Below are positions 44,411 to 63,736 of a stretch of 64,000 nucleotides of DNA, piece by piece. Position numbers and translations under genes: made by a program. This DNA is from Sphingomonas ginkgonis (GTDB lineage Bacteria > Pseudomonadota > Alphaproteobacteria > Sphingomonadales > Sphingomonadaceae). The DNA is taken from assembly GCF_003970925.1 (NCBI RefSeq), contig NZ_RWJF01000001.1, positions 800,501-864,500 on the forward strand, in the 5' to 3' direction. The notes beneath the pieces are model-generated. The model did no database searches. It saw nothing but the letters and a program-made list of their open reading frames with translations, and had not been told where the DNA came from. Positions within the stretch are counted from its first letter, which is position 1. Every line of letters starts with the position of its first letter.

Positions 44411-44989
44411 ATGGTACTCGCCTTGCTCCTGGCGTCAGCGCAGGCGGTCGCGGCGAACCCGCCTGCCGATCTTCCCGAATATAGCGAGCGGGCAGCTTAT
44501 GGACCGGCCGCGCCGAAGGCCACCGCCAGACCGCGGCGAGCATCCCTGGCCGACCCGTGTCAGGCGCGCACTCCCGAGCCGGGAGTGATCCTTGTTTGCG
44601 GCAGGCCCGACACCTACCGCATCGATCCCGACCTGTTGCTGGCGAAGCGCCTCGTCCATAACCAGGTTCAACAGCCCCGGCCACCCGAACGCCTGGAGGA
44701 CAGGAGCTGTCAGGTCGTCGGCACGATGGGCTGCATCAACACCCCGACGATCAACGTGTTTCAGGCGGTGATGACGGCTGCGACCATGGTGAAGACGGCG
44801 GCAACCGGCGGGAACGTGGGCAAGATGTTCGTCACCGGTCACGAACTCAGCGAATATGAACTCTACAAGCGGGCTCGCGAGCGCCGGATCCATTGCCCAT
44901 GGTCTTCGATGCGCAACGGCTCGGCCACCGGCGCAGCCTGTTTGGTCGACGATCCAGATGACAGCGCTGAAGGAAAGGCTGGCCATTGA
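44411..44989 (+). CDS. Secreted protein, function unknown
   Basis: 192 aa from the ATG at 44411 (CGGAGAT just upstream). Signal peptide VLALLLASAQAVAA. The mature part has several Cys residues (DPCQARTPEPGVILVCGR, RSCQVVGTMGCINTP, RRIHCPWSSMRNG, GAACLVDDP) that could form disulfides, and an Ala/Thr-rich middle (FQAVMTAATMVKTAATGG). A Cys-containing VILVCGR-type segment followed by a DTYRIDP-like block recurs in sphingomonad periplasmic proteins. The frame continues upstream to 44309 but those residues look untranslated. Confidence 0.7.
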   Translation: MVLALLLASAQAVAANPPADLPEYSERAAYGPAAPKATARPRRASLADPCQARTPEPGVILVCGRPDTYRIDPDLLLAKRLVHNQVQQPRPPERLEDRSCQVVGTMGCINTPTINVFQAVMTAATMVKTAATGGNVGKMFVTGHELSEYELYKRARERRIHCPWSSMRNGSATGAACLVDDPDDSAEGKAGH

Positions 44990-45038
44990 AGACACTTCAC
45001 GGCTGGATGCCATCGGTCTTCAGTCATGTGCAGGCCGC

Positions 45039-45764: not shown

Positions 45765-45805
45765 GGCCTGCCCTTAACAGGGCGCCGCGCAAGCCCCAAG
45801 GAGCA

Positions 45806-48129: not shown

Positions 48130-49382
48130 TACCAGTCGGGGTCGGGACGCGGTTTCCACTCTCTCGCCGCCTCGACAATGTCCTGCAGCTCGACCGGGGT
48201 GTCGAGCGGATCCTCGTCGAGGCTCTCGACCCGCTTCAGCTTGCGCTGCCAGCGGCGGAGCTCCTGAACGTAGGCAACGCAGGGCTTGCGCATCAGCGTT
48301 CCCGACGGGAGTTCTTCCAGGTCGGCGATGCCGTTGTGCAGCCAGCCGCCCTCGCTCCAGCTCGGCATGTCGACCCCCGGGAAGAGGCAGATGCCGTGAA
48401 GGTCGACCCCGCTGTTCACCGCCGCCATGCACTCGAGCAGCAGGTCGCGGAACCAGTCGTCGCGGCCGCCCTTCAAACCGCTGGTCTCGGCGATGATGAT
48501 CGGGCGACCGTAGCGGCGATAGCCGCGAAGGATGAGGTCGAATACCGGCACGATCCGGTCGTCGTCGGGCTTGAGCGCGGGGTAGGGCCCGCCCTCCGGC
48601 TTATATTCCTGCTGACCAAACGCATAATTGTTGAAGCCGACGATATCGAGCAGTTCGGGGCTGCCGCCCCATTCAGGATGGGTCCGCCCGGCGATCGCAT
48701 CGAGCGCCTCGTAGGGCTCGACGCATTCGGCACGGTGGGCGGCTTCGGCAAGGTCGGGGCGGTCGCGCGGCGGAACGACGTGGAGCAGCGGCTCGATGTG
48801 GATGAGCCGCGCTTCGGGGATTACGGCGCGGATCGCCTTGGCGGCGAAGATGTCAGCCTTGGCCAGCGCCATGCCCAGGCGGCGGCGGTCCCCCGCGCTC
48901 TTGCGGAACGGCGCGCACCAGCCCCACGCCCCGCCCATCAGTGCGAAGTGGCTGATCTCGTTGATCGGGGTGAAAAACCAGGGGCCGTGCGGCTGCTGCT
49001 CGAGCACCCAGCGGGCGGCGGCGGCGGCATAGGCGGCGAAACGGTTGGCGAACTGGTCGTCGAACGGATCGCAGCTGTCGGGCACGCCATAGTGGCAGAG
49101 ATCCCAGATGGGGGTCACCTTCCAGCGCTTCTGCGCGGCGGCGAATGACTCGACGGGCGAGAAGTCGTAGGTCCCGGCGCCGCGCTCGACCAGCGGCCAT
49201 GGGATGCCCTCGCGTGCGACCCCGAGGCCGAGACTGGCGAGAAAACGATAGTCCTCGTCGGCGTGGCTGCGGTGCTGCGTCTCCTCGACGAGGTCGCGGC
49301 GGCCCTGGTCCTTCCAGTCGAAGGTTGAGCATTCAAAGCCCGACAGGAAGAAGGTCGGGAAAATCATTGGTTTCTGAGTCAT
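48126..49382 (-). CDS. GH1-like (clan GH-A) glycoside hydrolase
   Basis: 418 aa from the ATG at 49382. Family-1-like blocks: FLSGFECSTFDW, LASLGLGVAREGIPWPLVERGAGTYDFSPVESF, PIWDLCHYGVPDSCDPFDDQFANRFAAYAAA, acid/base Glu in FFTPINEISHFAL and probable nucleophile Glu in IIIAETSGLKGGRDDWFRDLLLE. No signal peptide. The sequence is shorter than classic beta-glucosidases and the sugar specificity cannot be read. It lies 34 bases downstream of the beta-lactamase-like gene on the same strand. Confidence 0.85.
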   Translation of the reverse strand: MTQKPMIFPTFFLSGFECSTFDWKDQGRRDLVEETQHRSHADEDYRFLASLGLGVAREGIPWPLVERGAGTYDFSPVESFAAAQKRWKVTPIWDLCHYGVPDSCDPFDDQFANRFAAYAAAAARWVLEQQPHGPWFFTPINEISHFALMGGAWGWCAPFRKSAGDRRRLGMALAKADIFAAKAIRAVIPEARLIHIEPLLHVVPPRDRPDLAEAAHRAECVEPYEALDAIAGRTHPEWGGSPELLDIVGFNNYAFGQQEYKPEGGPYPALKPDDDRIVPVFDLILRGYRRYGRPIIIAETSGLKGGRDDWFRDLLLECMAAVNSGVDLHGICLFPGVDMPSWSEGGWLHNGIADLEELPSGTLMRKPCVAYVQELRRWQRKLKRVESLDEDPLDTPVELQDIVEAAREWKPRPDPDWY

Positions 49383-49416
49383 GCCAGCGGCAACGCGCCG
49401 CCCGGCGAACGGTTCG

Positions 49417-50340
49417 CTACTGGGCGGTGGCCGCGACCGGAGCGGCGATCGACGCGGCCGACAGCCCGCCGAACGGCTGGCTGACGATCGACCGGAAGCC
49501 CTCGTAGATGGCGAGCGCGGTCGCGGCGATGGTGCGCGGCCGGTTGTTGCCGTTGCGGGCAAAGATGGCGAGCGCCACCCGGCGCCCGTCGGGCATGGTG
49601 ATGAAGCCGACGTCGCCGGTCAGCCCGTTGAGCGTGCCCGTCTTGTGCTCGACCTTGGTGCCGTACGGAAGGAAGGCCTTCATCCGGTTCTTGCCGGTCT
49701 CGCAGCGGCTCATCACGCCGAGCAGATAGGCTCGGCTGGAGGGCGAGATGAAATCGCCGCTGTCGAGCCGCCGGAGAAACTGGACCATCGCTTCCGGGGT
49801 GGTGCTGTCGCGCACGTCCCACAGGTCCCGACGCGCGGCGAGCAGGGCGGCGATCGTCCGGTCCATCCGCATGCCCTTAACCTGGTGCTGGTTGAGCCAG
49901 GCCTGGATCGCGGACGGGCCGCCGAGATTTCTGAGCAGCATGTCGGTCGCAACATTGTTGCTGTGGATGAGCATGGCATCCATCAGCCGCGCCGCCGATT
50001 GGCCGCCAATCATGTCGTTGAGCGAACGCCGGCCATGCTCGACCTGACTGAGATAGTTGGCGGCGATCGCCACCTTGACCGTGCTCGCCATCGGGAAGCG
50101 CTGGTCGCCGCGAACGCTGACCATCTCCCCGGTCTTAAGGTCGATGGCGGCAACACCGACGTCATTGCTGCTGCCAACGACATAGCCGATCTGCTGCTCC
50201 AGCGAGCGCATCGATGGCGAGGACGCGGCGACAGCCGCCTGCGGCGCGGCTAGCAACAGGGCCGCGGCCATGACGACGCCTTTGCCCCACCCGCGCGGAC
50301 CCGACGTCTTCACCTCCGAGGAGAATGGCAGCAGCGACAA
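49417..50340 (-). CDS. Class A beta-lactamase-like serine hydrolase lacking the omega-loop glutamate
   Basis: 307 aa with a signal peptide ending near ALLLAAPQAAVA. The serine-penicillin-recognising motifs are present: SxxK as Ser86-Thr-Val-Lys89 (PMASTVKVAIA), SxN as Ser127-Asn-Asn129 and Lys233-Thr-Gly235. The omega-loop segment RMDRTIAALL, aligned by eye with R-W-E-P-E-L-N of TEM-type enzymes, has Ile where Glu166 is needed for deacylation and Leu where Asn170 is expected. It may bind beta-lactams without turning them over, or act on peptidoglycan peptides. GGGGGA lies six bases before the ATG. Confidence 0.88.
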   Translation of the reverse strand: MSLLPFSSEVKTSGPRGWGKGVVMAAALLLAAPQAAVAASSPSMRSLEQQIGYVVGSSNDVGVAAIDLKTGEMVSVRGDQRFPMASTVKVAIAANYLSQVEHGRRSLNDMIGGQSAARLMDAMLIHSNNVATDMLLRNLGGPSAIQAWLNQHQVKGMRMDRTIAALLAARRDLWDVRDSTTPEAMVQFLRRLDSGDFISPSSRAYLLGVMSRCETGKNRMKAFLPYGTKVEHKTGTLNGLTGDVGFITMPDGRRVALAIFARNGNNRPRTIAATALAIYEGFRSIVSQPFGGLSAASIAAPVAATAQ

Positions 50341-50500
50341 TTCGTTAATCCCCCGAACCGGAACTGGACAGCAAAGCTGAGCACTAAGTTCATCTTGGTG
50401 AACGAAACCTTATCATGGCGGCCCGAACAAGCATGAGTGACACGTAGATGCGGCGACCTGAGTCTTTTCAGCGGTCCGGCGAGTTGATAGCCCGGAACCC
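50341..50500. other. Divergent intergenic region
   Basis: 160 bases between the beta-lactamase-like gene and ptsP, relatively AT-rich for this genome (TTGGTGAACGAAACCTTATCATGG near 50396). It presumably holds both promoters. No gene seen. Confidence 0.4.
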
Positions 50501-52768
50501 ATGCCCTTGAGCGCCGCCTCCTCCGCCCGCGAGATTCTCACCGGTCTCCACGAGATCATGGCCGCTCGCGGCACCCCGCAATCCAAGCTGGACCGGGTCG
50601 TCGACCTGATTGCGACCGCGCTTCGAAGCGAGGTCTGTTCGATCTACCTGCTTCGCGACCATGTCCTCGAGTTGTGGGCTACCCACGGCCTGCGCAAGGA
50701 GGCGGTGCACGTCACCCGGCTGGAGATGGGCCAGGGTCTGGTCGGGGTGATCGCCGAGGAGGGCCGCGTGCTCAACCTCGCTGAGGCGGCCGAGCATCCG
50801 CAGTTCGTGTACCGGCCGGAAACGGGCGAGGAGCGCTACCACAGCTTCGCCGGGGTCCCGATCATTCGCCGTGAGAGCACCATCGGCACGCTCGCGGTCC
50901 AGCATGCCGAACCGCGCCGTTATGCCGACGTTGAGATCGAGGCGCTGCAGACAGTGGCAATGGTGCTGGCCGAGCTGATCGCCGCGGCCCGGCTGACCGA
51001 CGGGGTAGGGCGGCGACGGGCGCGCTCGAGCGGGATGGTCCGGCTGGCGGGGCTCAAGCTGGTCTCCGGCATGGCGCGCGGGGTCGCCGTGTTCCACCAG
51101 CCGCGGGTGGTGGTCGAGCATACGGTCGCGGAGGACACCGAGGCGGAGCGGGCACGCGTCTATGCCGCCTTCCGCCGCATGCGCGAGCAGATCGAGAACA
51201 TGACCCGCGATGCCGAGTTCGGCACCGCCGGCGAACATCGCGAGATCCTCGAGACCTACAAGATGTTCGCTTACGACGAGGGCTGGGCGCGCCGGATCAA
51301 CGAGGCGATCGACAGCGGCCTCACCGCGGAGGCGGCGATTGAGCGGGTGCAGCAGCGCACCCGCGCCCGAATGCAGGAAATCGACGATCCGCTGCTGAAG
51401 GAGCGGATGCACGACCTCGAGGATCTCGCCAACCGGCTCCTGCGGATCGTCTCGGGGCGGATGGGGACGGCGGCGCAGACCGGCCTCGCCAAGGACGCGA
51501 TCCTGATCGCCCGCAATCTCGGGCCAGCCGAGCTGCTGGAATATGATCGGCGGCGGCTCAAGGGCGTGGTGCTCGAAGAGGGCTCGCTGACCTCGCACAT
51601 GGTGATCGTTGCGCGGGCCCTCGGGATTCCGGTGCTCGGCCGGGTGCAGGACATCCGTCACCTCGCCGACGAGGGCGACGTCATCCTGCTCGACGGCGAC
51701 CAGGGCAGCCTCGCGGTGCGGCCGACGGGGCACATGATCTCGACTTTCGAGCAGCGCATGACGATGAGTCAGCGCCGCCGGGCCGAGTATGCGGCGATCC
51801 GCGGCAAGCCGGCGACGACCAAGGACGGGCTCGCCTGCCAACTGATGGTCAACGCCGGGCTGGCGGAGGACACGGCGCAGCTCGAGAACAGCGGTGCCGA
51901 CGGAATTGGCCTGTTCCGCACCGAGTTCCAGTTCCTCGTCGCCGCCACCCTGCCCGGGCGCGAGAGCCAGTATCGGCTCTACCGGCAGGTGCTCGACGCT
52001 GCGGGCGACAAGCCGGTCGTCTTTCGTACTGTCGACATCGGCGGGGACAAGGCGCTGCCCTACCTGCAGGACGAGAAAGACGAGAGCGAGAACCCGGCGA
52101 TGGGCTGGCGCGCGCTCCGCCTCAGCCTCGAGCGAAGCGCCCTGATGAAGGCGCAGGCGCGAGCGCTGATCGAGGCGGCGGGCGGGCGGACGCTGCGGGT
52201 TATGTTCCCGATGGTCTCGGAACCGTGGGAGTTCGACGAGGCCAAGCAGCTGTTCGAGAAGCAGATCGAATGGGCGGTGCAGGCGAAGCGGCCGACCCCG
52301 GCGAAGATCGAGTATGGCTGCATGCTGGAAGTGCCGAGCCTCGCCGAGGTTCTCGACCTCCTGCTGCCCAAGCTCGACTTCCTGTCGATCGGCACCAACG
52401 ATCTGACCCAGTTCCTGTTCGCAGCGGACCGCGCGGATCCGCGGCTGGCCCAGCGCTACGACTGGCTGAGCCCGGCCATCCTCCGTTTCCTTCGCCGGGT
52501 CATCCGCCAGTGCCGCGAGGCCGGCGTGCCGGTGCGGATCTGCGGCGAGATGGGTGGCCGCCCGCTCGAGGCGCTTGCGCTGGTCGGGATCGGGATGGAG
52601 AGTTTCTCGATCACTCCGGCGGCGGTCGGGGCGATCAAGGCGATGATCCGTTCGCTCGACGCCGGGGCGGCGCGCGCCCGGCTCGAGCAGATGCTCGCCC
52701 GCCCGCCGCGCGACTTCCGCCGCGCGCTGCTGGAGTGGGCACGCAAGCAGGAAGTGGTGCTCGGCTGA
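50501..52768 (+). CDS. ptsP: Nitrogen PTS phosphoenolpyruvate-protein phosphotransferase (GAF domain + EI)
   Basis: 755 aa. The N-terminal GAF domain (about residues 20-160; SEVCSIYLLRDHVLELWATHGL, GQGLVGVIAEEGRVLNL) is followed by Enzyme I. The phosphorylated His lies in EGSLTSHMVIVARALGIPVLG near residue 366. The PEP-binding barrel has GADGIGLFRTEFQFL, FRTVDIGGDKALPYL and the signature DFLSIGTNDLTQFLFAADR near residue 626. It starts the nitrogen-responsive PTS relay (PtsP to NPr to EIIA-Ntr). No NPr or EIIA gene is nearby. Confidence 0.96.
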   Translation: MPLSAASSAREILTGLHEIMAARGTPQSKLDRVVDLIATALRSEVCSIYLLRDHVLELWATHGLRKEAVHVTRLEMGQGLVGVIAEEGRVLNLAEAAEHPQFVYRPETGEERYHSFAGVPIIRRESTIGTLAVQHAEPRRYADVEIEALQTVAMVLAELIAAARLTDGVGRRRARSSGMVRLAGLKLVSGMARGVAVFHQPRVVVEHTVAEDTEAERARVYAAFRRMREQIENMTRDAEFGTAGEHREILETYKMFAYDEGWARRINEAIDSGLTAEAAIERVQQRTRARMQEIDDPLLKERMHDLEDLANRLLRIVSGRMGTAAQTGLAKDAILIARNLGPAELLEYDRRRLKGVVLEEGSLTSHMVIVARALGIPVLGRVQDIRHLADEGDVILLDGDQGSLAVRPTGHMISTFEQRMTMSQRRRAEYAAIRGKPATTKDGLACQLMVNAGLAEDTAQLENSGADGIGLFRTEFQFLVAATLPGRESQYRLYRQVLDAAGDKPVVFRTVDIGGDKALPYLQDEKDESENPAMGWRALRLSLERSALMKAQARALIEAAGGRTLRVMFPMVSEPWEFDEAKQLFEKQIEWAVQAKRPTPAKIEYGCMLEVPSLAEVLDLLLPKLDFLSIGTNDLTQFLFAADRADPRLAQRYDWLSPAILRFLRRVIRQCREAGVPVRICGEMGGRPLEALALVGIGMESFSITPAAVGAIKAMIRSLDAGAARARLEQMLARPPRDFRRALLEWARKQEVVLG

Positions 52769-52841
52769 GCCAACGGTTGACAGGCCGGGAGCCCACCGTG
52801 AAGGTGCCGGCCGGTTCGCAGCAATCACGGACGGGCGGGGT

Positions 52842-53669
52842 ATGGTCGAAACGGACGGGATGGACGGCGGCACGGTCGGCGAGCGGCTGCGGTCGGCGCG
52901 GCAGGCGCAGCAGCTGACGCTCGAGGACGTCGCCGCGCGGACGCGGATCCCGGTCCGCCATCTCGAGAGCATCGAAGGCGGCGACTGGGACCGGCTGCCC
53001 GCCCCGACCTATTCGATGGGGTTCGCCAAGAGCTATGCCTCGGCGCTTGGGCTAGACCGGACCGAGATCGGCGAGCAGCTTCGGGCGGAGATGGGCGGCA
53101 GCACCTATCGCGCGCCCCACGCCGCGCCCGAGGTGTTCGAGCCCGCCGATCCCAAGCGAGTCCCGCCGCGGACGCTGGTGGTGGTCGCGCTGCTGGCGAT
53201 CGTCGCGATCGTCGCTGTCCTCCTTTATCTGCGCAGCGCCTCGCTTGAAGGCGGCCCCGATGCCGCGCCGGGTGCGGCCAACCCGGCGCGGCCGACCGCT
53301 TCGGCGCCCGCCACTCCGGCAGCGGCTCCGGCACCGAGCGGACCGGTGGTGATCACCGCCAACGACGCGGTCTGGCTGCAGGTCAGCGAGAAGGGAGGCG
53401 CGACGCTCTTCTCCGGGCAGCTGGCGCAGGGTCAGGCCTACACCGTGCCGACCACCGCCAAGGCGCCCGTGCTCAAGACCGGCAAGCCCGAGGCAATCCG
53501 CATCTCGGTCGGCACCGCCGACGCGCCGCCCGTCGGCCAGCCCGCAACCACCGTCCGCGACGTCAGCCTGCTCCCGGCCGACCTGCTGCGGCAAGGCGCC
53601 TCGGCGGCGTCGCCGAACGCCGCGACGGGAGCCACTTCCCCTAGTGCAACGGCAGCGCCGCCGCGCTAG
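52842..53669 (+). CDS. RodZ-like helix-turn-helix membrane protein
   Basis: 275 aa. An Xre-type HTH of the RodZ group (VGERLRSARQAQQLTLEDVAARTRIPVRHLESIEGGDWDRLPAPTYSMGFAKSYASALGLD) spans residues about 10-78. One membrane span follows (TLVVVALLAIVAIVAVLLYL, about 110-130), then an Ala/Pro-rich linker and a C-terminal DUF4115 beta domain (VVITANDAVWLQVSEKGGATLFSGQLAQGQAYTVP). RodZ links MreB to the cell wall machinery; this copy sits next to ptsP and a CpoB-like gene, not with ispG. Confidence 0.88.
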   Translation: MVETDGMDGGTVGERLRSARQAQQLTLEDVAARTRIPVRHLESIEGGDWDRLPAPTYSMGFAKSYASALGLDRTEIGEQLRAEMGGSTYRAPHAAPEVFEPADPKRVPPRTLVVVALLAIVAIVAVLLYLRSASLEGGPDAAPGAANPARPTASAPATPAAAPAPSGPVVITANDAVWLQVSEKGGATLFSGQLAQGQAYTVPTTAKAPVLKTGKPEAIRISVGTADAPPVGQPATTVRDVSLLPADLLRQGASAASPNAATGATSPSATAAPPR

Positions 53670-53737
53670 GATTCAGCCGGGGGACAGCTTGCCCGGGCGA
53701 GAGCAGCCGCGGGATTGATGGCGGGGATCAATTGGCT

Positions 53738-54721
53738 ATGCGTTTGAGAATGATGCTTTTGCTCGCGGGCGTCGCGGGCAGTCTTTCGACTGCGGGACTG
53801 ACCCGCGATCCGCCCACCGCGGAACAGCGGCTCGACCGGCTCGAGCGCCAGGTCCGGCAGGTGCAGGGCAAGCTGTTCCCCAAGGGACAGCCAGCCGACA
53901 CCGCCGGCGTTTCGGACGATCCGGCGGCGACCCAGTCGACCGTGACCGATCTCGCGACGCGCATCGACGCGCTCGAGAAGTCGCTGGCGGAGATCACCCG
54001 CGCGTCGGAGGAGAACGGCAACCGCCTGAGCACAATGGAGGCCGACGTCGCGCGCATGCGGGCGGACAGCGACAATCGCTTCAAGGCGCTGGAAAATGCC
54101 GGGCCGCCGCCCGCGGCCGCGGGGAGTGCGGCCGTCGCGCCGACATCGCCCCAGGCCGACGCGAGCGAGCCGCCGGCACCGACTCCGGCGCCCGAGCCGC
54201 GCCCCGCGCCGCGCAAGGTGGTCCGCGAAGGACCGCCGCCCGCGCCCAAGCCGAAGTTCGAGACAGGCGAAGCGGACAGCACGCCCGCCCGCCCGGCAGT
54301 CGCCACCAAATTGGCGAGCGGCGCGGCCGGGCTCGATGCCGAGGCCGCCTATGACGCCGGCTACCAACACTGGATGAAAAAGGACTTTGACGGCGCGGTC
54401 ACCGCGCTGAAGGGCTTCTCGGCCAAGTATCCGGGCAACCGCCGGGTAAGCTGGGCGAACAATCTCTCCGGCCGTGCGCTGCTCGACAGCGGCCAGCCGC
54501 GCGCCGCGGCCGAAGTGCTGCTCGCCAACTACCGCAAGGATCCCAAAGGGGAGCGGGCGCCCGACAGCCTTTTCTATCTCGGCCAGGCGCTGATGCGGCT
54601 CAACCAGTCGACCCAGGCGTGCAAGGCCTACGCCGAGCTGCAGGACGTGTACGGCTCTTCGATGCGCCCCGACCTTCGCAAGCTGCTCACCCCCGCGAAG
54701 GCCGAGGCCGGCTGCAAGTGA
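53738..54721 (+). CDS. cpoB: CpoB/YbgF-like periplasmic TPR protein
   Basis: 327 aa. A signal-like N-terminus is followed by a coiled coil (TAEQRLDRLERQVRQVQGKLF; ATRIDALEKSLAEITRASEENGNRLSTMEADVARMR), a Pro/Ala-rich linker (residues about 115-190) and C-terminal TPRs (AAYDAGYQHWMKKDFDGAVTALKGFSAKYPGNRRVSWANNLSGRALL). This is the CpoB layout. CpoB coordinates PBP1B and Tol during division, but tol-pal genes are absent from the window. The ATG at 53738 is preceded by GGGGAT. It overlaps tilS by 4 bases. Confidence 0.88.
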   Translation: MRLRMMLLLAGVAGSLSTAGLTRDPPTAEQRLDRLERQVRQVQGKLFPKGQPADTAGVSDDPAATQSTVTDLATRIDALEKSLAEITRASEENGNRLSTMEADVARMRADSDNRFKALENAGPPPAAAGSAAVAPTSPQADASEPPAPTPAPEPRPAPRKVVREGPPPAPKPKFETGEADSTPARPAVATKLASGAAGLDAEAAYDAGYQHWMKKDFDGAVTALKGFSAKYPGNRRVSWANNLSGRALLDSGQPRAAAEVLLANYRKDPKGERAPDSLFYLGQALMRLNQSTQACKAYAELQDVYGSSMRPDLRKLLTPAKAEAGCK

Positions 54722-55785: not shown

Positions 55786-55872
55786 GCCCAGGTGGCGGAA
55801 TTGGTAGACGCACCAGCTTCAGGTGCTGGCGCTCGCAAGGGCGTGGAGGTTCGAGTCCTCTCCTGGGCACCA
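55786..55872 (+). tRNA. tRNA-Leu (anticodon CAG)
   Basis: 87 bases with encoded CCA. Acceptor stem GCCCAGG / CCTGGGC, D arm with AATTGGTAGAC, anticodon stem CCAGC / GCTGG around loop TTCAGGT (anticodon CAG, 55820-55822), a long variable arm typical of class II tRNAs, and T arm GGTTCGAGTCC. It is the probable insertion target of the recombinase element to its right, and the gene remains intact. Confidence 0.97.
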
Positions 55873-57462
55873 CTCCCGGTCAAAGATGGGCACCGGCTCG
55901 CGAGCGGGATCGCCTACTTTGACGAGGGTCCGCTCAAGCGCTGCCTTACTCCCCCTGATGACAATCTCCTCGGGTGTAACGGTGACCTGGTCCACAAACA
56001 GTCGCACGTAGGCGGAGCGGAACTGATGATCGCCCTCCCGGAGGGCCGTTTTCATCCGTTTGCCGAAAGTATCGATCATTTCCTTGGTGATGCGCACCTT
56101 CGCCTTGGCAAGCTGAGCTTCCAGCGCCTTCACGTCCGCTTCGAGCATGCTTTTGCGAGCCCGGTTGTGAGCCATGCGCTCAGCGAACTCTGGCTCATCA
56201 AGGCGAGAGACGTCGCGCTCGACCAAGATCATGAGGTTCGTGATCGCCTTGGACACGCTGGTCAGTTCAGTCCGCGCCAGCGCCAGATCCCTGCGTCTCC
56301 GCTTGTCAGCATCCGCAGAGCGATCCAGCAGATGGGAAAGAAGCACCGGAAGCCTTGAAGGGGCGAAGAGCCGTTCCTGCAGGGCGCCTATCACTGCGCC
56401 TTCAAGTTCATCCCGCTGGGTCGAGGGGAGATTGCAGGCGGCAGCTCCTTCGTTCACGCGCGCGCTGCAGCAATAGTAGTGATAGGCGCCGCTCTTGCCG
56501 GTGCGCACCGTCAACCCGGCGCCGCAGCCTGGCTGGCCACACTTGGCGATCGTGGCAGGCAGCAAGGTCGTGCCGTTCGTCACCCGAGGCGGCGTGACCC
56601 TAGGCGACCGCTTCGCGCGAAGGGCAGCGACTTCGAGGAACTCTTCTTCGCTGATGATCGACGGGCACGGCACCGTGATCCACTGGTCCTCGGGCAAGGG
56701 CTCCTTGAACTCGTTCTTCTTCCCGTCGAGGTAGTAGCCGACATAATGTGTGCGGTTGAGGATACCGGCCACGTTCGAGTTCTTGAAACGGGCGCCACGC
56801 AGCGTGTAGCCCCTCGAGTTGAGCCACTGGGCAATGCCCCTGGCTCCCAGAGGACCCTTCCCGTCACCGTAGCGAGCAAGGCGGAACATCTGGCGGACGA
56901 CCGCGGCCTCATCCTCCCGAATGGCGAGCTTCTTCTTCTCCTTGTCCTTCCGCCGCTCGACCGTGATCGACTGGTAGCCGAAGGGGATAGGGCCTCCGTT
57001 CCAGAAGCCCTGCGCAGCATTCTCATTCATGGTCCTGATCGTGTTGACCGACGACTGGTCAGACACGTGCTGATTGAAGGCGCCGACCATCGAGCGCATC
57101 AGGTTGCCATTAGGGCCTTTGCCGAATGTCTCGGTCACGGAGGCCAGACCCACGCCCACTGCCTGCAGCTGCTCGTATGAGTTCGACTGCAGGGAGAGTT
57201 TGCGGGCGAATCGGCTGAGAGCGAACACGACGATCACGTCGAATGGGCGCAGGGCGCTCTGCGCGAGGCTCATCATCTTGCGGAAGACTGGCCGGCCCTC
57301 GTCCTTGCCCGACATGCCGGGCTCCTGCAGGACGTCGACTAGCTCCCAACCCCGAGCCGCGCAGAACTCCTCAATCTTCGAGATCTGACTGGGAAGGCTG
57401 ATTCCGTGCTGTGCCTGGTCGTCAGTGCTGACCCGCACGTAGCCGCATGCCCGAAGCCTCAC
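55819..57462 (-). CDS. Large serine recombinase (integrase)
   Basis: 547 aa, GTG start at 57462. The resolvase catalytic domain has YVRVSTDDQ (Ser12), SGKDEGRPVFRKMM, FDVIVVFALSRFARK (catalytic Arg pair). The Recombinase domain follows (AAQGFWNGGPIPFGY, ARGIAQWLNSRGYTLRGARFKNSNVAGILNRTHYVGYY), then a zinc ribbon with paired Cys (CGQPGCGAG ... YYCCSARVNEGAAACN) and a coiled coil (about 390-450). The last ~18 residues are encoded by the antisense strand of tRNA-Leu, and the stop codon (55819-55821) falls on the anticodon region. It should insert and excise the element. Its start overlaps the upstream gene by 4 bases (GTGA). Confidence 0.95.
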   Translation of the reverse strand: MRLRACGYVRVSTDDQAQHGISLPSQISKIEEFCAARGWELVDVLQEPGMSGKDEGRPVFRKMMSLAQSALRPFDVIVVFALSRFARKLSLQSNSYEQLQAVGVGLASVTETFGKGPNGNLMRSMVGAFNQHVSDQSSVNTIRTMNENAAQGFWNGGPIPFGYQSITVERRKDKEKKKLAIREDEAAVVRQMFRLARYGDGKGPLGARGIAQWLNSRGYTLRGARFKNSNVAGILNRTHYVGYYLDGKKNEFKEPLPEDQWITVPCPSIISEEEFLEVAALRAKRSPRVTPPRVTNGTTLLPATIAKCGQPGCGAGLTVRTGKSGAYHYYCCSARVNEGAAACNLPSTQRDELEGAVIGALQERLFAPSRLPVLLSHLLDRSADADKRRRRDLALARTELTSVSKAITNLMILVERDVSRLDEPEFAERMAHNRARKSMLEADVKALEAQLAKAKVRITKEMIDTFGKRMKTALREGDHQFRSAYVRLFVDQVTVTPEEIVIRGSKAALERTLVKVGDPAREPVPIFDREWCPGEDSNLHALASAST

Positions 57463-57839
57463 CGCTTCTTTCCTCCGACCAGAACATCATGCTTCGGCTG
57501 AGAACGATCCGAGATGGCCACGAGGGTTAAGCCAGCCCCTAGGAGCATGGCTTCCATCCGTTCGAGCGCGGGTCCAGCCTGCGTGACATGCGACCACCAA
57601 GGAACGACCAAGAGATCGTACGGGCGCTCGGGCCGGCAGGCGGCGGTGACCAGCTCCGCCAGCCGACCATAGTGCTGCTGCCCATCGTACGCCGTCTCGA
57701 CGACCGTGATCACATGCGCAAAGCCGCGTTGGCGGCAATAGGCTTGGATGCTGGCGATCTGTTCGGGCACGATGGACCGGGCGAACTGCAGTTCCAGCGG
57801 CGGATGCACGTAGCCTGCGACCTTGAGGGGAGCCTTCAC
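57459..57839 (-). CDS. Stand-alone resolvase-like domain, catalytic residues lost
   Basis: 126 aa, GTG start with AAGGGGG about six bases upstream, directly abutting the preceding stop (TGA GTG). It follows the resolvase fold: KVAGYVHPPLE in place of YxRVSTxxQ, EQIASIQAYCRQRGFAHVITVVETAYDG, PYDLLVVPWWSHVTQAGPALERMEAMLLGAGLTLVAISD. The catalytic Ser is Pro14, the nearby Arg is His12, and the S-R-x-x-R motif reads S83-H-V-T-Q87. It therefore cannot cut DNA by the known mechanism, and may act as a partner subunit or directionality factor for the other recombinases. The fold assignment is by eye. Confidence 0.8.
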   Translation of the reverse strand: MKAPLKVAGYVHPPLELQFARSIVPEQIASIQAYCRQRGFAHVITVVETAYDGQQHYGRLAELVTAACRPERPYDLLVVPWWSHVTQAGPALERMEAMLLGAGLTLVAISDRSQPKHDVLVGGKKR

Positions 57840-58217
57840 TCAAGCCCCCTTACCAAGGAGGTTGGCGGCGCTGGTGTCGACCGCGATCAGCAGCACGCCG
57901 CCAGCGCTCAGCCGGTCAGCGTAGGTTGCGAATTCGCCAGGGCGGCGCGCGACGCGGGAAGTCGAAGCGACCACGATGGCATCGAAGGGGCGATCCGCGG
58001 AGCAGGCGCGATCAACCAACTCCTCGAAGTCACGCTGGTCGTCACCCGCCCCGACTGCGATCTTTGCGCCCTCGATGGCGGAGGACACGATCGTCATCTT
58101 GTTTGCGGCACAGTATCCGCGAATACGGGCCAGCTGCCGCAGTTCTTCGGTGAGGCGATGCGGCGCGTCGGTGCTGGAACGGGCGTAGGCGGCAACGCGA
58201 AGTCCATGGTACTTCAT
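57840..58217 (-). CDS. Stand-alone serine-recombinase catalytic domain
   Basis: 125 aa with AAAGGA seven bases before the ATG. It covers only the resolvase catalytic domain: VAAYARSSTDAP (Arg13, probable catalytic Ser15), ELRQLARIRGYCAANKMTIV, DFEELVDRACSADRPFDAIVVASTSRVARRPGEFATYADRLSAGGVLLIAVDT, with Arg88 and Arg91 of the S-R-x-x-R motif. There is no DNA-binding HTH or Recombinase domain behind it. It heads the tight trio with the inactive paralogue and the full-length integrase. The tail ends in SAANLLGKGA. Confidence 0.85.
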   Translation of the reverse strand: MKYHGLRVAAYARSSTDAPHRLTEELRQLARIRGYCAANKMTIVSSAIEGAKIAVGAGDDQRDFEELVDRACSADRPFDAIVVASTSRVARRPGEFATYADRLSAGGVLLIAVDTSAANLLGKGA

Positions 58218-58219
58218 CT

Positions 58220-58423
58220 TTAATCCTTTCTTTCTTGTGAGATGTCGCTCGCGCCGCCTGCGGACCCAAGAAGGTCAGAGACGACATCACCCAGCCACGC
58301 TAGGAGCAGGTCGACTTCTTCGGGCGACACGGGGAGCTCCCTGGGCAGGTCGCAGCGGATGCGCCTGGAACCGGCGTTTCGGCTTCCTGCTCTCTGAACA
58401 TGGATGGGCGAATGAAACGACAT
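58220..58423 (-). CDS. Small protein of the element, function unknown
   Basis: 67 aa, ATG at 58423 with GGAACGGG upstream. Its stop is two bases before the first recombinase-domain gene, which fits one operon. The C-terminal half (ELPVSPEEVDLLLAWLGDVVSDLLG) is a likely amphipathic helix pair; the N-terminal 25 residues are basic. No known family. It could be a small DNA-binding or directionality protein, but that is a guess. Confidence 0.45.
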   Translation of the reverse strand: MSFHSPIHVQRAGSRNAGSRRIRCDLPRELPVSPEEVDLLLAWLGDVVSDLLGSAGGASDISQERKD

Positions 58424-58505
58424 GCCCGTTCCATGTCATGCTGGCGCCAGGTCCTTTGCGACCAGGTTGCTTGCTACTTTCGAGGTTAGGCTGTCGCCGC
58501 TCTGG

Positions 58506-58922
58506 CTAGGGTTCGCGCCTTTCTCGGTCGGCTTTCTTGCTGCGCCACGCCGCCTCGGCCGCCGCTGCCCGGAAGCCCCGTAGGATGAAGGCGTTCAAGA
58601 GGTCGATGTCTCGCACGGCTAGAACGTCGAACAGCGTGGGCGGGGATGGCTGCTGCGCCAGCCAGGCATCGAGCTTGGCGAAGATCTCGTCATCAGCCTT
58701 GTTGCGCTCGGTGAGAAGGTAACGGCTGTTGAGCGTTTCGATGATCTCCCCGTCGATCATGGCCTCGGTCGGGCTGACGACGAGCGACGTGGTGATGTAG
58801 GCGCCCTCTCTGAAGCGCTGCTTGCGATCACCGGACACCTTGCCGGCGAGAAAATGCCGGCCATCCGACAACTCGCAGATGATCCAGTTGCTGAGCGTCG
58901 CATCGTGAGAACCTGAGTCCAT
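58506..58922 (-). CDS. Hypothetical protein of the element
   Basis: 138 aa from the ATG at 58922, which has GGAGGAAA upstream. The first part (LSNWIICELSDGRHFLAGKVSGDRKQRFREGAYITTSLVVSPTEAMIDGEIIETLNSRYLLTERNKADDEIFAKLDAWLAQQ) looks like a small beta barrel that might bind nucleic acid; the C-terminus is a charged helix. I do not recognise a family. It lies between the exonuclease and the recombinase trio on the same strand. Confidence 0.7.
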   Translation of the reverse strand: MDSGSHDATLSNWIICELSDGRHFLAGKVSGDRKQRFREGAYITTSLVVSPTEAMIDGEIIETLNSRYLLTERNKADDEIFAKLDAWLAQQPSPPTLFDVLAVRDIDLLNAFILRGFRAAAAEAAWRSKKADRERREP

Positions 58923-59019
58923 TATTTTTCCTCCGGGCATCATTGCCGAAAGGTCAGTTCCTCCAAGTGGGTCTCACCCCGTGAGGGCGGAGGCACCGCG
59001 CCGATGCCGCCCCCGTTCG

Positions 59020-59745
59020 TCAGAAGTCGAAGTCGTCCAGGCCTCGAGTAGGGTAGCTCTGACGAGGCGGCTCCGGGACGGTGGCGAATGCTGCAACGCT
59101 TGGGTATTCGCTGGCGCGCTCGACTGCCCATGAGGCGAACTCACGCCAAGCTGTCCGGGCCGCGCCCGGCTCATGGACCTTGTTCCAGAAGAGGCTGGCG
59201 AGCCAGCAGCCCACCACGTCGGTCTCGCAATAGCGCTCAAGAGCGGCCCAGTCCTCTCGAGTCACGAGTGCGGATACGGTGCTTGCAGGCTCTTGCTTCA
59301 CCGGAATGCCGAAGGGCGCACAGATCTGGGCGAGGCTCGTCGGAGCCGCAGCTCGCTTCAGCTGGTCGAACAGGTCGAGGTGTTTCCCGACCATCGAGCG
59401 GTTGTGCATGTCCATTAGCCTGGGGACATGAAGCTCGTGGAGAGCGGCCCGAGCCAGCAACACGGGCAGGTCGAATTGGTAGCCGTTGAACGTCAGGAGG
59501 ACATCGGCATCGTCGACTGCTGTCTCGAGGGACATGATGATCCCGCGCTCAGACACTAAACCTCGCGAGAAGCTCTCGAGAGCGTAGAAGCGCTGTCCGT
59601 CTGCCTTGCTGAGGACGGCCAGAGCGCTGGCGCAGACGACCTGGTGCAGCGGAAACGGAGCGAACTCATCTGATGGGACGTAGCCGCAGCGAGCAGCAGC
59701 CTCCTCGTCGAGGGCGGTTTCGATATCGATGGTAACGGTCTTCAC
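59020..59745 (-). CDS. DEDDy-type 3'-5' exonuclease
   Basis: 241 aa, GTG start with AAGGAA upstream. The DnaQ-like fold of the PolB-related exonuclease group is visible: TIDIET (Asp7, Glu9), ADVLLTFNGYQFDLPVLLARA (Asp92) and RYCETDVVGCW (Tyr172, Asp176), which completes the DEDDy set. FDQLKRAAAPTSLAQICAPFGIP fits the middle of the fold. Such enzymes are common on phages and plasmids, where they trim DNA or RNA during replication. On this element it may process DNA during transfer, replication or recombination. Confidence 0.85.
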   Translation of the reverse strand: MKTVTIDIETALDEEAAARCGYVPSDEFAPFPLHQVVCASALAVLSKADGQRFYALESFSRGLVSERGIIMSLETAVDDADVLLTFNGYQFDLPVLLARAALHELHVPRLMDMHNRSMVGKHLDLFDQLKRAAAPTSLAQICAPFGIPVKQEPASTVSALVTREDWAALERYCETDVVGCWLASLFWNKVHEPGAARTAWREFASWAVERASEYPSVAAFATVPEPPRQSYPTRGLDDFDF

Positions 59746-59829
59746 TTGGTATTCCTTGGAATTAGGCGCGTGTGCGGTGTCTCCACCGCCGGAGGACGAC
59801 GGTGGATGGTCACGGTTGGTTGGGACGGG

Positions 59830-60375
59830 TCAGGCGTTCCGGTCGGGCCAAGCAGCCCATTCGGCAGCAAGGGTGACCTTTGGCGAGCCCTTGAGCAGGG
59901 GCGTGAACCCGAGGAAGTTGCTGTCGTGGAGCTCACGGGCGAAGATCAGCATGTGGACGTGCGGCTTGCCTTCCGCATAGCCGCTGAGCCCGGGCTGATG
60001 TTGGACCAGAACCACAGGCAGCCGCCGCTCCACGCAGAGCTTGGCCCATGCGAACGAACGGGCAGCCTCGAACTGGGCGTGGAAGGTGCCACCCAGCCTG
60101 AACCTCACCGTAAATAGGATCATCAGGTCCCGCGTTTCGGGCAGACGCTGATCCTCGAAGCGTCGCAGGATCGCACTCAAATCCCGCAACATGTCTGTTG
60201 CGTGCGGCGGAATGAGTAGTTCCTCACGCTGGCACGTCGAGTTCCCATCATGGAGAGTGATGCGGCGACCGACTACCTCGTCGGTGCGGTTGAGCTTGCC
60301 GTTGAACTCGCCCGGGATGATGCCTCCGGCGACGTCTACTGAAACCTTGCTGCGGTCGGCCTTGTAGTCGGCCAT
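59830..60375 (-). CDS. Minimal HUH-type protein (MobA/MobL relaxase-like or replication initiator)
   Basis: 181 aa; GAGAAGG is well placed before the ATG. The C-terminal half resembles MobA/MobL relaxases: ARSFAWAKLCVERRLPVVLVQHQ followed by GKPHVHMLIFAREL, where His139-Val-His141 would be the HUH metal pair. The protein is much shorter than usual relaxases and I could not identify a catalytic Tyr with confidence; Tyr4 is a possibility. The first 100 residues contain no other recognised domain. It may nick an origin for mobilisation or rolling-circle replication of the element. Confidence 0.65.
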   Translation of the reverse strand: MADYKADRSKVSVDVAGGIIPGEFNGKLNRTDEVVGRRITLHDGNSTCQREELLIPPHATDMLRDLSAILRRFEDQRLPETRDLMILFTVRFRLGGTFHAQFEAARSFAWAKLCVERRLPVVLVQHQPGLSGYAEGKPHVHMLIFARELHDSNFLGFTPLLKGSPKVTLAAEWAAWPDRNA

Positions 60376-60378
60376 GGC

Positions 60379-60462
60379 TTAGGCCTTCTCGCCGGAGAGG
60401 TTGGCAGCAACGGGCTGATCATCGAATGCCTGCGAAAACTTAGAAATCTCTTTGATAGACAA
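60379..60462 (-). CDS. Possible 27-residue leader peptide before the HUH gene
   Basis: A TTG at 60462 with AAAGAGGA six bases upstream opens a frame ending in TAA three bases before the HUH gene start. The product begins LSIKEISKFSQAFDDQ and ends VAANLSGEKA. Its end resembles the SAANLLGKGA end of the recombinase-domain protein. An upstream TTG would make it 11 residues longer. Evidence is limited to spacing and ribosome site. Confidence 0.35.
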   Translation of the reverse strand: MSIKEISKFSQAFDDQPVAANLSGEKA

Positions 60463-60786
60463 GGGCGTATCCTCTTTGGATGGATCGCTCCTCAACCCGA
60501 ACTTCTTTTCATCCGCTCGGGCGGAGCAAACTCCTGCCCCTTCTTCATTGATCCTCTTCTTCCCTTGTCACCGGACGTCTGCACTTGGCCGTAAGGAGAC
60601 TGTCCACTTTTCGGCGACAAGGCGGCATTCTAGACAATCGTCCAGTCACGCGGGGATAACTGCTATTGATCCAAAGCCATGGCTCGGCTGTGCACCTCCC
60701 AGCGTTGTCCCCTTTGAGCTGTCGCAAGCTGCAATTGTAAGCTGACAACTCGCGTCAGAAAGACGCGAATGAGCTAGAGAGCGCCC
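60463..60786. other. Intergenic region at the right side of the element
   Basis: About 320 bases, more AT-rich than most of the window. It should hold the leftward promoter of the element operon and the rightward yeiH promoter, and perhaps the right attachment site. GGAGACTGTCCACTTTTCGG at 60595-60614 resembles the start of the repeat near 63737. Short frames on both strands have no ribosome site and no recognisable product. Confidence 0.4.
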
Positions 60787-61857
60787 ATGTTTGCCCGCTT
60801 CGCCCTCCCATTCGGTCCGAGATCGATCGTCCCCGGCCTCTTGCTATGTCTTGCCGTTACCGGGGCGGCATACGCCCTCCAAGCCGGCGAAATCGCGCTG
60901 CTTGGCAAGGCGTGGATCGAGGCATTGGTAATGGCGATTCTGGCGGGAGCGGTGGTTCGCTCGCTGTGGACGCCCGGCGAGCGGTGGCACGAAGGAATCC
61001 AGTTCAGCGTCAAGACCTTGCTGGAAATCGCCGTTGTGCTGCTCGGCGCTTCGGTCAGCGCGGCTACGATCCTGGCTGCCGGCTGGGCCCTTCTGTTCGG
61101 AATCGTCATAGTAGTGACGATTGCCATCGTCGCGAGCTTCGCCATCGGGCGGATGCTGGGATTGCCGACGCGGATGGCACTGCTGGTGGCGTGCGGCAAT
61201 TCGATCTGCGGCAACTCGGCCATCGCGGCGGTTGCGCCGGTGATCGGCGCTGACGGAGACGACGTCGCGGCGTCGATCGCTTTTACCGCAGTGCTGGGGG
61301 TCATCGTGGTGTTGGCGCTGCCGTTCATCGGCATGGCGCTCGGGCTGCGCAGTCATGGCTATGGAGCGTTCGCTGGCCTCACCGTCTATGCCGTGCCACA
61401 GGTGATTGCCGCCGCCGCGCCAATGGGCGCAGTAGCGGTGCAAATGGGAACGCTGGTCAAGCTGGTGCGGGTGCTAATGCTAGGACCGGTGTGCGTGATT
61501 CTGGCCCTCCTCGCGCCGCGCCTCGCGCCTCAGTCCGAGCCGGCCGACGCAGTAATTGCCGGCGAGGCTCCCACTAGAAAAATTCCACCGCTGAGCAAGC
61601 TGGCGCCGTGGTTCATCCTCGGTTTCCTGGCGATGGTTGCGCTCCGCTCGCTGGGGCTGATCCCTGTGGCCATCCTGGCGCCGCTCGCCACCCTGGCGAC
61701 CTTTCTTACGATCGTCTCAATGGCCGCGCTCGGCTTGGGTGTCGATGTCCGCACCGTCGCCAAGGCCGGAGGGCCGGTGACCGCGACGGTCGTCCTGTCG
61801 CTCGTGCTGCTCGGCGCAATCAGCTTTGCGTTGCTATTCGCGATCGGCCTCGCCTAG
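60787..61857 (+). CDS. YeiH-family putative sulfate exporter (membrane protein)
   Basis: 356 aa with about ten spans. The family's repeated helical core is visible: KTLLEIAVVLLGASVSAATILAAGW, LLVACGNSICGNSAIAAVAPVIGADGDDVAASIAFTAVLGVIVVLALPFIG, VYAVPQVIAAAAPMGAVAVQMGTLVKLVRVLMLGP and the C-terminal MAALGLGVDVRTVAKAGG. A substrate is not established for this family; sulfate and sulfur compounds have been proposed. It could be element cargo or resident. Its stop overlaps the convergent beta-propeller gene by 4 bases. Confidence 0.92.
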   Translation: MFARFALPFGPRSIVPGLLLCLAVTGAAYALQAGEIALLGKAWIEALVMAILAGAVVRSLWTPGERWHEGIQFSVKTLLEIAVVLLGASVSAATILAAGWALLFGIVIVVTIAIVASFAIGRMLGLPTRMALLVACGNSICGNSAIAAVAPVIGADGDDVAASIAFTAVLGVIVVLALPFIGMALGLRSHGYGAFAGLTVYAVPQVIAAAAPMGAVAVQMGTLVKLVRVLMLGPVCVILALLAPRLAPQSEPADAVIAGEAPTRKIPPLSKLAPWFILGFLAMVALRSLGLIPVAILAPLATLATFLTIVSMAALGLGVDVRTVAKAGGPVTATVVLSLVLLGAISFALLFAIGLA

Positions 61858-63275
61858 CGCTGCACCTGCACCGGAGCGCCCGGTGCATCGGGCGTCCCAT
61901 TAGCAACGACGAGGTAACGCCGATCGTCACTGGCCTCGTCGGTCACGACCTGACGGATCGGGCCAATCGCGTTGACGATGGCGCTGCCTGCCGGGTTTGT
62001 CGTGAACTTGGCCAGCGGCTGCAGCTTGCCTCGCCCGTCCGGCCGGTCCGCAAGGGCAAGGATGAAGTCGGTCTTGGGCGGCAGGCCCGCGACCGCCGCC
62101 TGCAGGATCTGGACTTGGCCCTGGTCGAACAGCGTGACCTGACTTCGCCCGGTCCCGGACAACTCCAGCTGGGTCTTTGCCAGCGCCTTGGCCAGCGGCA
62201 TCAAATTCGACCGTCCGTCACCGGCGGTGACCGCACCCGGCACATAAGCGACGCCTTGCGGCCCTTGGCCGATGGGCACGTTGGCGATAACCTTGTTTGC
62301 GGCGGTATCGATCACCGCCACCATGTCGGCATTTTCCAGACCGACGTACATCCGGCTTCCGTCGCCCGACGGCCAAAGACCATGGGGTAGCGCACCGACC
62401 GGAACTGACGCCACCTGGGCGAAATCGCTGGTCCGGAAAACCTTTACGACGTTCTCGGTGCCGACCGTGACATAGGCGAACTGCCCCTTCGCGGTGCGCG
62501 CGATGTTGACGTGATTGGTGATCGGGCCAGTATCGATCGTCTTGAGAATATTGAACGGCGGGCGAGCGTCGAACACCATGACCTTTCCGACGTCCTTCAA
62601 TGTTAGCCACACCTGCTTACCGTCCGGCGTGGCGGCAAGGTCGGGGCAGAAAGGGCTGGCCTGCTTGACCCGCCCGGCGACCTTTTTCGTCCGTGTGTCG
62701 ATCGCCACGGTTTCCGGCGAGAAGCTGGAGCAGACGAAGCCATAGCGCCCGTCTGGCGAAAAGATGGTCATACCTGGTCCGGTAGGGACCGTGATCCGCC
62801 CTGTTTCGCGGAACGTCTTGCCGTCGAGCACGGCGACGTAATCCTCGCCCCGGATGCTGACCCATACCTCGCGGCCATCGGGGCGAAAAAAGGCCTCGTG
62901 CGGGGAGCGTCCGACGTAGGCGGTATGCTTCACCGTGTTGGTCTCGGTGTCGATGAAGCTGACCGAATTCGACCCGATCGATACCACCGCCAGCGTCTTC
63001 CCGTCGGGCGAGAAGCCCATGCCGTGAACCAGCAGCTGGCCCTTATAGAGCGGACTGAGATTGCCCGGCGTCTGGTCGCCAAGCTTGATGACCCCAAGCA
63101 ATTGGTTGCTCGATGGGTCGATGACTGAAACCGTGTTCGAGAACTGATCAGACGTGTAGAACCGATCACGCGCGCTGACCGGTACGTCGTATTTGCCGTT
63201 CGGAACCTGCTGCGCCTTGGCGGGCGCGATTGCCAGCAGGCCGGCCGCAATTGCGGCCACTGAACGGTGGGTCAC
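61854..63275 (-). CDS. Secreted YncE-like YVTN beta-propeller protein
   Basis: 473 aa from a GTG at 63275 with AAGGAGAT seven bases upstream; a longer frame to 63350 has no such site. A signal peptide ends near AIAPAKAQQ. Six or seven beta-propeller repeats follow, e.g. QFSNTVSVIDPSSNQLLGVIKLG, GSNSVSFIDTETNTVKHTAYVG, GRYGFVCSSFSPETVAIDTRTKKVAG, ADMVAAVIDTAANKVIANVPIG-like unit. The C-terminal 110 residues form a separate domain. Periplasmic propellers of this type often accompany copper or methylamine oxidation systems. It follows the DUF305 gene on the same strand. Confidence 0.9.
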   Translation of the reverse strand: MTHRSVAAIAAGLLAIAPAKAQQVPNGKYDVPVSARDRFYTSDQFSNTVSVIDPSSNQLLGVIKLGDQTPGNLSPLYKGQLLVHGMGFSPDGKTLAVVSIGSNSVSFIDTETNTVKHTAYVGRSPHEAFFRPDGREVWVSIRGEDYVAVLDGKTFRETGRITVPTGPGMTIFSPDGRYGFVCSSFSPETVAIDTRTKKVAGRVKQASPFCPDLAATPDGKQVWLTLKDVGKVMVFDARPPFNILKTIDTGPITNHVNIARTAKGQFAYVTVGTENVVKVFRTSDFAQVASVPVGALPHGLWPSGDGSRMYVGLENADMVAVIDTAANKVIANVPIGQGPQGVAYVPGAVTAGDGRSNLMPLAKALAKTQLELSGTGRSQVTLFDQGQVQILQAAVAGLPPKTDFILALADRPDGRGKLQPLAKFTTNPAGSAIVNAIGPIRQVVTDEASDDRRYLVVANGTPDAPGAPVQVQR

Positions 63276-63327
63276 AGGCGTATCTCCTTGAAAACTTGCG
63301 AGCCTAACGCGGCCTCCCGCGATACGT

Positions 63328-63648
63328 TCAATGACTGGCTTTATGCTCATCCAGAATGCGTTTCATCGTCGCGATTTCCTGCTGCTGTTCGACGATAATC
63401 CCCTGCGCCAAGCGGCGAAGTTGTTCGTTCTTTCCGTACTGGAGCTGGATTTTCGCCATATCGATCGCACCCTCGTGATGGACAATCATCATCTCGGCGA
63501 AATCGCGGTCTGGATCGCCGCTCGCAGGCCGCATCATGCCGTGATGCATGCGCTCCATCGCGGTCGTCATGTCCGCCAAGAACGTGTTTCCAGGCGGCGA
63601 CGCTGCAGCCGTGAGGACTAAAAGAACGAGCGGGGTAGCAAATTTCAT
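63328..63648 (-). CDS. DUF305 family protein (His/Met-rich, possible copper binding)
   Basis: 106 aa from the ATG at 63648. A signal peptide (TPLVLLVLTAAAS) precedes the DUF305 ferritin-like core: MTTAMERMHHGMM, DPDRDFAEMMIVHHEGAIDMAKIQLQYGKNEQLRRLAQGIIVEQQQEIATMKRIL. The MMIVHHEGAIDMA block with paired His and Met is the family signature and suggests periplasmic metal (copper) binding. The YVTN gene starts 52 bases downstream, so both are probably one operon. Confidence 0.93.
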   Translation of the reverse strand: MKFATPLVLLVLTAAASPPGNTFLADMTTAMERMHHGMMRPASGDPDRDFAEMMIVHHEGAIDMAKIQLQYGKNEQLRRLAQGIIVEQQQEIATMKRILDEHKASH

Positions 63649-63736
63649 GTCGTTTTCCCTCGAAGGAAGCCGAGTTATGGTCAGGCTGCGGTGCGATGAA
63701 CGTGCCACCTCAACACGGGTCGCATGATGGCCGATA

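Follow-up and report, generated by a model that had tools for sequence, protein, structure and literature searches.

Large serine integrases such as those of phiC31 and Bxb1 work together with a small recombination directionality factor (RDF), gp3 and gp47, respectively. To our knowledge, none of the known RDFs is related to the catalytic domain; among the accessory tasks described for serine integrases, controlling the direction is the best known. In the SCC elements two large serine recombinases (LSRs), CcrA and CcrB, act jointly, and both are full-length. Trios of recombinases occur in the RIT elements, where they are tyrosine enzymes. How LSRs change from insertion to excision is under active study, and the enzymes serve as genome-writing tools.

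The locus discussed here lies in a window of 64,000 nucleotides from Sphingomonas ginkgonis (G000). It comprises three adjacent minus-strand genes coding for proteins of 125, 126 and 547 amino acids, P1, P2 and P3, respectively (Table 1). Like the phiC31 and Bxb1 systems, it combines an integrase with small accessory proteins, and the small ORF67 ahead of P1 could be an RDF. Unlike the RDFs of these phages, P1 and P2 are resolvase cores. The CcrA/CcrB pair is comparable in that two LSR genes work together, and the top NCBIfam hit of P3 is CcrB; yet both Ccr proteins are full-length, and P3 with 127 bits stays far under the family cut-off of 900. The RIT elements likewise have three recombinase genes in a row, but of an unrelated enzyme family.

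Serine integrase triplets are on record from streptococci. The excerpts of Ambroset et al. 2016 (PMC4701971) used here describe them in six ICEs and three decayed ICEs, with a Resolvase and a Recombinase domain in each member, and ascribe their origin to two duplications. As in those excerpts, three serine-recombinase genes of the same orientation here occupy one end of the element, and the direct repeats are very short. The streptococcal triplets, however, are all full-length and disrupt mutT, traG or hsdM (PMC4701971, same excerpts), whereas here two of the three proteins are cores only, one of them dead, the target is a tRNA 3' end, and Resolvase and Recombinase domains are combined in P3 only. 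The earlier note had known of no named serine counterpart to the RIT trios made up of one full-length and two catalytic-domain-only proteins. In the open-licence literature searched, no paper came up on single or inactive catalytic cores as partners of a serine integrase.

The serine-recombinase integrative mobilizable elements (IMEs) in the excerpts of the 2017 IME review (PMC5704250) come from Firmicutes, and no RDF is identified or proposed for them there. Those such as Tn4451 share with the present element a relaxase, a serine integrase and very short repeats. They reside inside genes or insert with low specificity, according to these excerpts (PMC5704250), in contrast to the tRNA 3' ends used here in Alphaproteobacteria.

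The gene trio and its element

P1 ends with a TGA directly before the GTG of P2, P2 and P3 overlap by the 4 nt GTGA, and the end of ORF67 directly adjoins P1. ORF67, P1, P2 and P3 are presumably co-transcribed as one operon. Coordinates, strands, lengths and joins of the trio proved to be as the earlier note had given them, and so did the classification of P3 as a full-length LSR: it has Resolvase, Recombinase and zinc-ribbon domains. It matches the PHROGs integrase family phrog_95 (E 1.2e-93). R10, S12, R84 and R87 are kept and are invariant in 11 aligned LSRs. With these domains and residues P3 can act without a partner. Relatives were found in 13 plasmid records (E 1e-60), all with less than 60% identity; the one record inspected has no annotated gene just upstream.

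Table 1. Features of the trio and its surroundings, in window positions
Feature	Position	Strand	Basis
ORF67, 67 aa, first operon gene	58220..58423	-	no Pfam match over cut-off, no NCBIfam family
P1, resolvase core alone, without helix alphaE	57840..58217	-	PF00239 E 7.7e-10, AlphaFold2, Foldseek
P2, resolvase core alone, without alphaE, active site lost (YVHPP, SHVTQ)	57459..57839	-	
P3, full-length large serine recombinase (LSR, integrase)	55819..57462	-	PF00239, PF07508, PF13408
tRNA-Leu(CAG), integration target	55786..55872	+	
attL core GGCACCA, marking the element's left end	55866..55872	.	both ends compared with G056
Left-end arm CTCCCGGTCAAAGATGGGCACC, also P3 coding end (VPIFDRE)	55873..55894	.	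putative attP half-site
Backbone gene, 145 aa, conserved	58506-58943	-	
Backbone gene, PolB-exonuclease-like, 241 aa, conserved	59020-59745	-	
Backbone gene, 181 aa, conserved	59830-60375	-	
Probable cargo: PF03601 membrane protein, YNCE-like beta-propeller, DUF305 protein	60787..63708	.	

The trio forms the left end of an element of 22.8 kb, the right end of which lies beyond the window. The same gene order is found in a congener (G056), in an element of 40.8 kb. The S. ginkgonis element sits at the 3' end of tRNA-Leu(CAG), the one of G056 in tRNA-Thr(CGT), and unbroken identity between the two genomes starts at GGCACCA, the last bases of either tRNA gene; the T-arms of the two tRNAs are also alike. 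GGCACCA is repeated at the right end (G000:C1:879128-879134, window-equivalent 78628-78634). There, 50 bp are common to both genomes (84%; window-equivalent 78585-78634, G056 C1:1740744-1740695), stopping at GGGCACCA. The DNA of G056 is 84% identical over 55847-60609. The probable cargo that follows has no collinear match in G056, the sole relative being a 47% relative of the PF03601 protein outside the G056 element.

The backbone common with G056 also holds a MobA/MobL relaxase (PF03389, 37.6 bits, cut-off 26.7; NCBIfam MobQ, 62 bits, under the cut-off of 200). With defined ends, a repeated core, an integrase and a relaxase, the element is probably an IME, which P3 probably inserts into tRNA genes. 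Its two ends and its recurrence in another tRNA gene show a mobile context. Relatives of the right flank of G056, sought for an empty tRNA-Thr site, were found in G035 and G008, with no tRNA gene in the stretches examined.

The left-end arm is the same or similar beside tRNA-Thr in G056, G165 and other loci and is probably an attP half-site. The right-end motif GAGTGCCC-N14-TGGGGCACCA hits 182 of 397 genomes of the family, if up to two mismatches are allowed; many of the hits listed are one tRNA-like sequence. Exact matches among those listed occur in G165, G415 and G125, each of which has a core-plus-LSR operon, and also in G113, G147, G228, G310 and G326, where no core was seen. Some of these right ends have GTGCCCATCTTTG as their arm, which exactly inverts CAAAGATGGGCAC of the arm at the left end. 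When the joined ends were tested for dyad symmetry, at best 15/24 positions matched for G056 and 11/24 for G000, against an average of 11.0 in 2000 shuffles of the G000 sequence, 71 of which reach 14; the symmetry of attP thus rests on the family motif and not on the G000 element.

Another right end, at 69494 (GCGCACCACC), where a conserved block stops, was also considered. This position, immediately ahead of the relaxase gene, was dropped in favour of the end at 78585-78634, which has the exact core GGCACCA and no similarity that we could find beyond it. The stretch 69440-69494 (window-equivalent) has a conserved short hairpin, a T-run and TTAATTGCGCACCACC. By eye it resembles the nick regions of MOBQ-type oriTs, and we take it as a candidate oriT.

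The P3 gene runs into tRNA-Leu(CAG) with its final 17 codons and its stop. EWC, the conserved end of the LSRs, results from translation of the attachment core TGGTGCC. The residues behind EWC come from the target tRNA, and the integrated and circular forms should therefore have different tails.

The two short proteins and their relatives

P1 matches PF00239 with 39.5 bits (cut-off 23.3). P2 reaches 17.2 bits, which is under the Pfam cut-off, and has no PHROGs match at E 1 and no NCBIfam match. Its family matches being weak, its assignment to the resolvases depends on the predicted fold and on the catalytic domains of LSRs that phmmer retrieves with it (E down to 2.5e-7, as compared to 2e-12 for the best LSR match of P1, both among the ORFs of a first set of loci). 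AlphaFold2 predicts for P1 and P2 alike (mean pLDDT 81.4 and 79.6) a resolvase-type core of alternating strands and helices with a low-confidence end and without the long helix thereafter. Foldseek puts serine recombinase catalytic domains first for both (6dgc, 3guv and 3bvp for P1; 6dgc, 3bvp and 9iu2 for P2). A profile of cores and LSR domains matched the TP901-1 integrase domain to residue 112 of 138. P1 and P2 match LSRs in the N-terminal core only; Recombinase and zinc-ribbon domains are absent.

In P1, R13, S15, R88 and R91 are in place. In P2 these places are taken by H, P, H and Q, so that the Arg-x-Ser and Arg-x-x-Arg places read H-P-P and H-V-T-Q, in both genomes in which P2 was detected. 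The earlier note had seen in them a lone catalytic domain with its residues and a second one with all catalytic positions changed; residues, structure predictions and homology bear this out for both, and both are relatives of resolvases. Neither has the features of an active recombinase subunit: P1 retains the catalytic residues and lacks alphaE, and P2 has lost the catalytic Ser and Arg in both genomes. Helix alphaE makes the dimer and the tetramer of a normal serine recombinase. Without it P1 and P2 should not be ordinary recombinase subunits, and without alphaE and DNA-binding parts they should not bind att sites as subunits.

P1 and P2 are kept by purifying selection. Between S. ginkgonis and G056, the proteins of the set are 82-95% identical: 94.9% for P3, 119/126 residues (94.4%) for P2, 102/125 for P1 and 55/67 for ORF67. 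The dN/dS values are 0.06 for P3, 0.12 for P2, 0.31 for P1, 0.23 for ORF67 and 0.13 for the relaxase. By a simple binomial calculation on this single genome pair, fewer changes than expected alter an amino acid in P2 (9.5 of 33, p 1.8e-7), in P1 (25 of 50, p 2.4e-4) and in ORF67 (12 of 27, p 7.7e-4). P2, its catalytic residues gone, is thus about as conserved as P3. In both genomes the close gene joins are preserved and P1 and P2 are free of stops. The earlier note had suggested searching other genomes for the gene order, and it would have been refuted by short proteins unrelated to resolvases or by recent debris missing from every sister element; neither applies. The order recurs in G056, which makes the trio more than a chance arrangement, and purifying selection together with the presence of both cores in this sister element shows that they are not recent debris.

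Only in G000 and G056 did we find a pair of lone cores ahead of an LSR. Single cores precede related LSRs, on the same strand, at nine further loci from several genera: in G165 (Croceibacterium soli, L167), G171 (Glacieibacterium frigidum, L169), G431 (uncultured Sphingomonadaceae, L184), G415, G108 (catalytic Ser replaced by Pro), G125 (frameshifted), two Erythrobacter loci (L182 and L183) and an uncultured Croceicoccus (L193). In G165 and G431 about 0.3 kb separate the core from the LSR. All aligned cores stop before alphaE, except L182 with an alphaE-like tail; L184 is shorter because a stop codon replaces the Gln after which L182 continues into this tail.

No second resolvase-type ORF (E 1e-3) was detected at 98 of 105 related loci, which were taken from genome and viral contigs and 11 of which have less than 1 kb upstream of the match. 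Six of the other seven have an upstream core, and L171 has a second recombinase downstream. L178 has a possible, very diverged dead core, recognised by place and eye only, which shows that diverged cores are missed at E 1e-3. The LSR of L168 is 62% identical to P3 and is accompanied by an ORF67 relative, with no core found. LSRs without a core, L168 included, indicate that recombination as such can proceed without these proteins. Separate P2-like genes were found neither in the 396 other genomes of the family sample (G056 not being among the matches), nor in phages or plasmids, nor, with a single-sequence query, in genome contigs. No separate P1-like genes were found in plasmids, and the family sample yielded one short frame in G165 and a 180-aa frame in G370 (C194:11969-12130). 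The latter matches P1 residues 55-110 and may be another lone core.

In a tree calculated from 43 catalytic cores and a single outgroup row, a branch with 78% bootstrap support (74/96) separates the 12 lone cores, L178 among them, from the rest; several branches are, however, very long, the tree program warns of false joins, and a single origin of the cores is therefore unsure. A group of P1, P2 and the G165 core is supported at 94/85, one of P1 with P2 at only 84/39, and one of P3 with the LSRs of G056 and G165 at 99/96. The cores stand apart, and P3 is placed among other LSRs; a recent origin of P1 and P2 by copying of P3 is thereby excluded. P1 is closer to the LSR of G171 (43%) than to P3 (36%). 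In G171 (C2:630601-632190; L159:8602-10190) a core, an ORF67 relative and decayed fragments of a second LSR precede an intact LSR. This arrangement suggests past tandem LSR modules, and the G171 core may be a remnant.

Possible roles of the short proteins

The earlier note had inferred a heteromeric serine recombinase complex in which the short proteins control synapsis or direction. This is supported in part: both are resolvase relatives kept by selection, but they should not serve as ordinary subunits and are not generally required, and the complex would be hypothetical. We give about an even chance to P1 and P2 being accessory pseudo-recombinases, i.e., LSR cores that regulate P3. They would be LSR catalytic cores that have lost alphaE and all DNA-binding domains and have turned into small partners of P3. 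The cutting and joining of DNA would be left to P3 alone, which would insert the element at the GGCACCA end of tRNA genes. Most likely, P1 and P2 would bind to the catalytic domain of P3 via the faces that they still have in common with it. We infer that such binding would alter the timing or the direction of synapse assembly by P3. That a dead core matches the integrase so closely in conservation suggests that it acts through protein contacts, and gene order and common fold point to P3 as the likeliest partner. A further-reaching proposal is that stripped cores, one of them dead, are a new class of recombination co-factors, which dock on an LSR and imitate part of a recombinase subunit to set direction, timing or choice of tRNA. 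We consider it tentative, its chance being somewhat below even; the choice of the tRNA end comes into play because the same element occupies tRNA-Leu in S. ginkgonis and tRNA-Thr in G056. If true, a partner derived from the integrase's own catalytic core would offer a new handle on the switch between insertion and excision.

The operon position of P1 and P2 would also suit an RDF, and either or both might switch P3 from integration to excision. ORF67 is the better candidate, since it accompanies most of these LSRs: an iterative profile search detected relatives upstream of 70 of 79 LSR loci. These 79 are 52 loci of one set plus 27 of the 80 of a second one, four seeds included; the other 53 were left out, since either no LSR start was located or fewer than 300 bases precede it, and some genomes occur in both sets and are counted twice (e.g., L131/L167, L132/L169, L133/L172). 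ORF67 is a candidate RDF and a small partner of this LSR family. As LSRs without cores presumably excise as well, we judge an RDF role of P1 or P2 to be unlikely. ORF67, in turn, is a testable RDF candidate for a tRNA-targeting integrase family in Alphaproteobacteria, and the closely related elements in two tRNA genes provide ready attachment sites for assays.

Several related loci have other genes between ORF67 and the LSR, regulator- or toxin-antitoxin-like by eye, which makes a role of P1 and P2 in cargo or competition conceivable. The cores could then be decoys that poison competing LSRs at the same tRNA ends. The site looks contested: a second LSR and prophage-like genes lie directly behind the right end in S. 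ginkgonis, and an LSR-end remnant is found by the tRNA-Leu of G056, which the trio element does not occupy. The likeness of P1 to the foreign LSR of G171 would fit, too. Yet P2 is strongly conserved along with the P3 of its own operon, as would rather be expected of a fixed partner, and decoys are improbable. The same slot before the LSR could be taken to indicate an unrelated role, e.g., in transcription control or relaxase contact; no domain besides the resolvase core was found in P1 or P2, and we regard such a role as highly doubtful. That the cores are functionless, decaying leftovers of a former full-length recombinase set might be read from their patchy occurrence, the fragmented extra LSR in G171 and the frameshifted core in G125. 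This idea was already disfavoured by dN/dS values well below 1, the lack of stops and the close joins in both genomes, and is very improbable. Regulation of P3 by P1 and P2 remains our preferred reading.

Surroundings of the insertion site

The second full LSR gene (window-equivalent 78569-80314; L082:14669-16414, minus strand) runs with its 3' end into the right end of the trio element. It is absent from P3's own matches. The trio element seems to have been inserted between tRNA-Leu and an older LSR element.

The prophage-like genes, named by eye, extend over window-equivalent positions of about 82800-120244 (L082, L086, L087). A probable tyrosine integrase gene (117978-119237, start read by eye) marks the end of this stretch, and a copy of the tRNA-Leu 3' end with two mismatches lies at 120223-120244. 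This copy was considered as attR and dropped; it is 1 kb from the candidate tyrosine integrase gene and most likely bounds the prophage-like region.

The tRNA-Leu(CAG) of G056 is free of the trio element and has the LSR-end remnant beside it (C1:1652559-1652699). This remnant encodes about 47 residues like the end of P3, with 64% identity, the tRNA part included. P3 has similar matches in other genomes. The tRNA-Leu looks like a repeatedly used site. A chromosomal block at about 41154-54715, reaching to a tilS-type region by tRNA-Leu, is inverted relative to tRNA-Leu as compared to G056.
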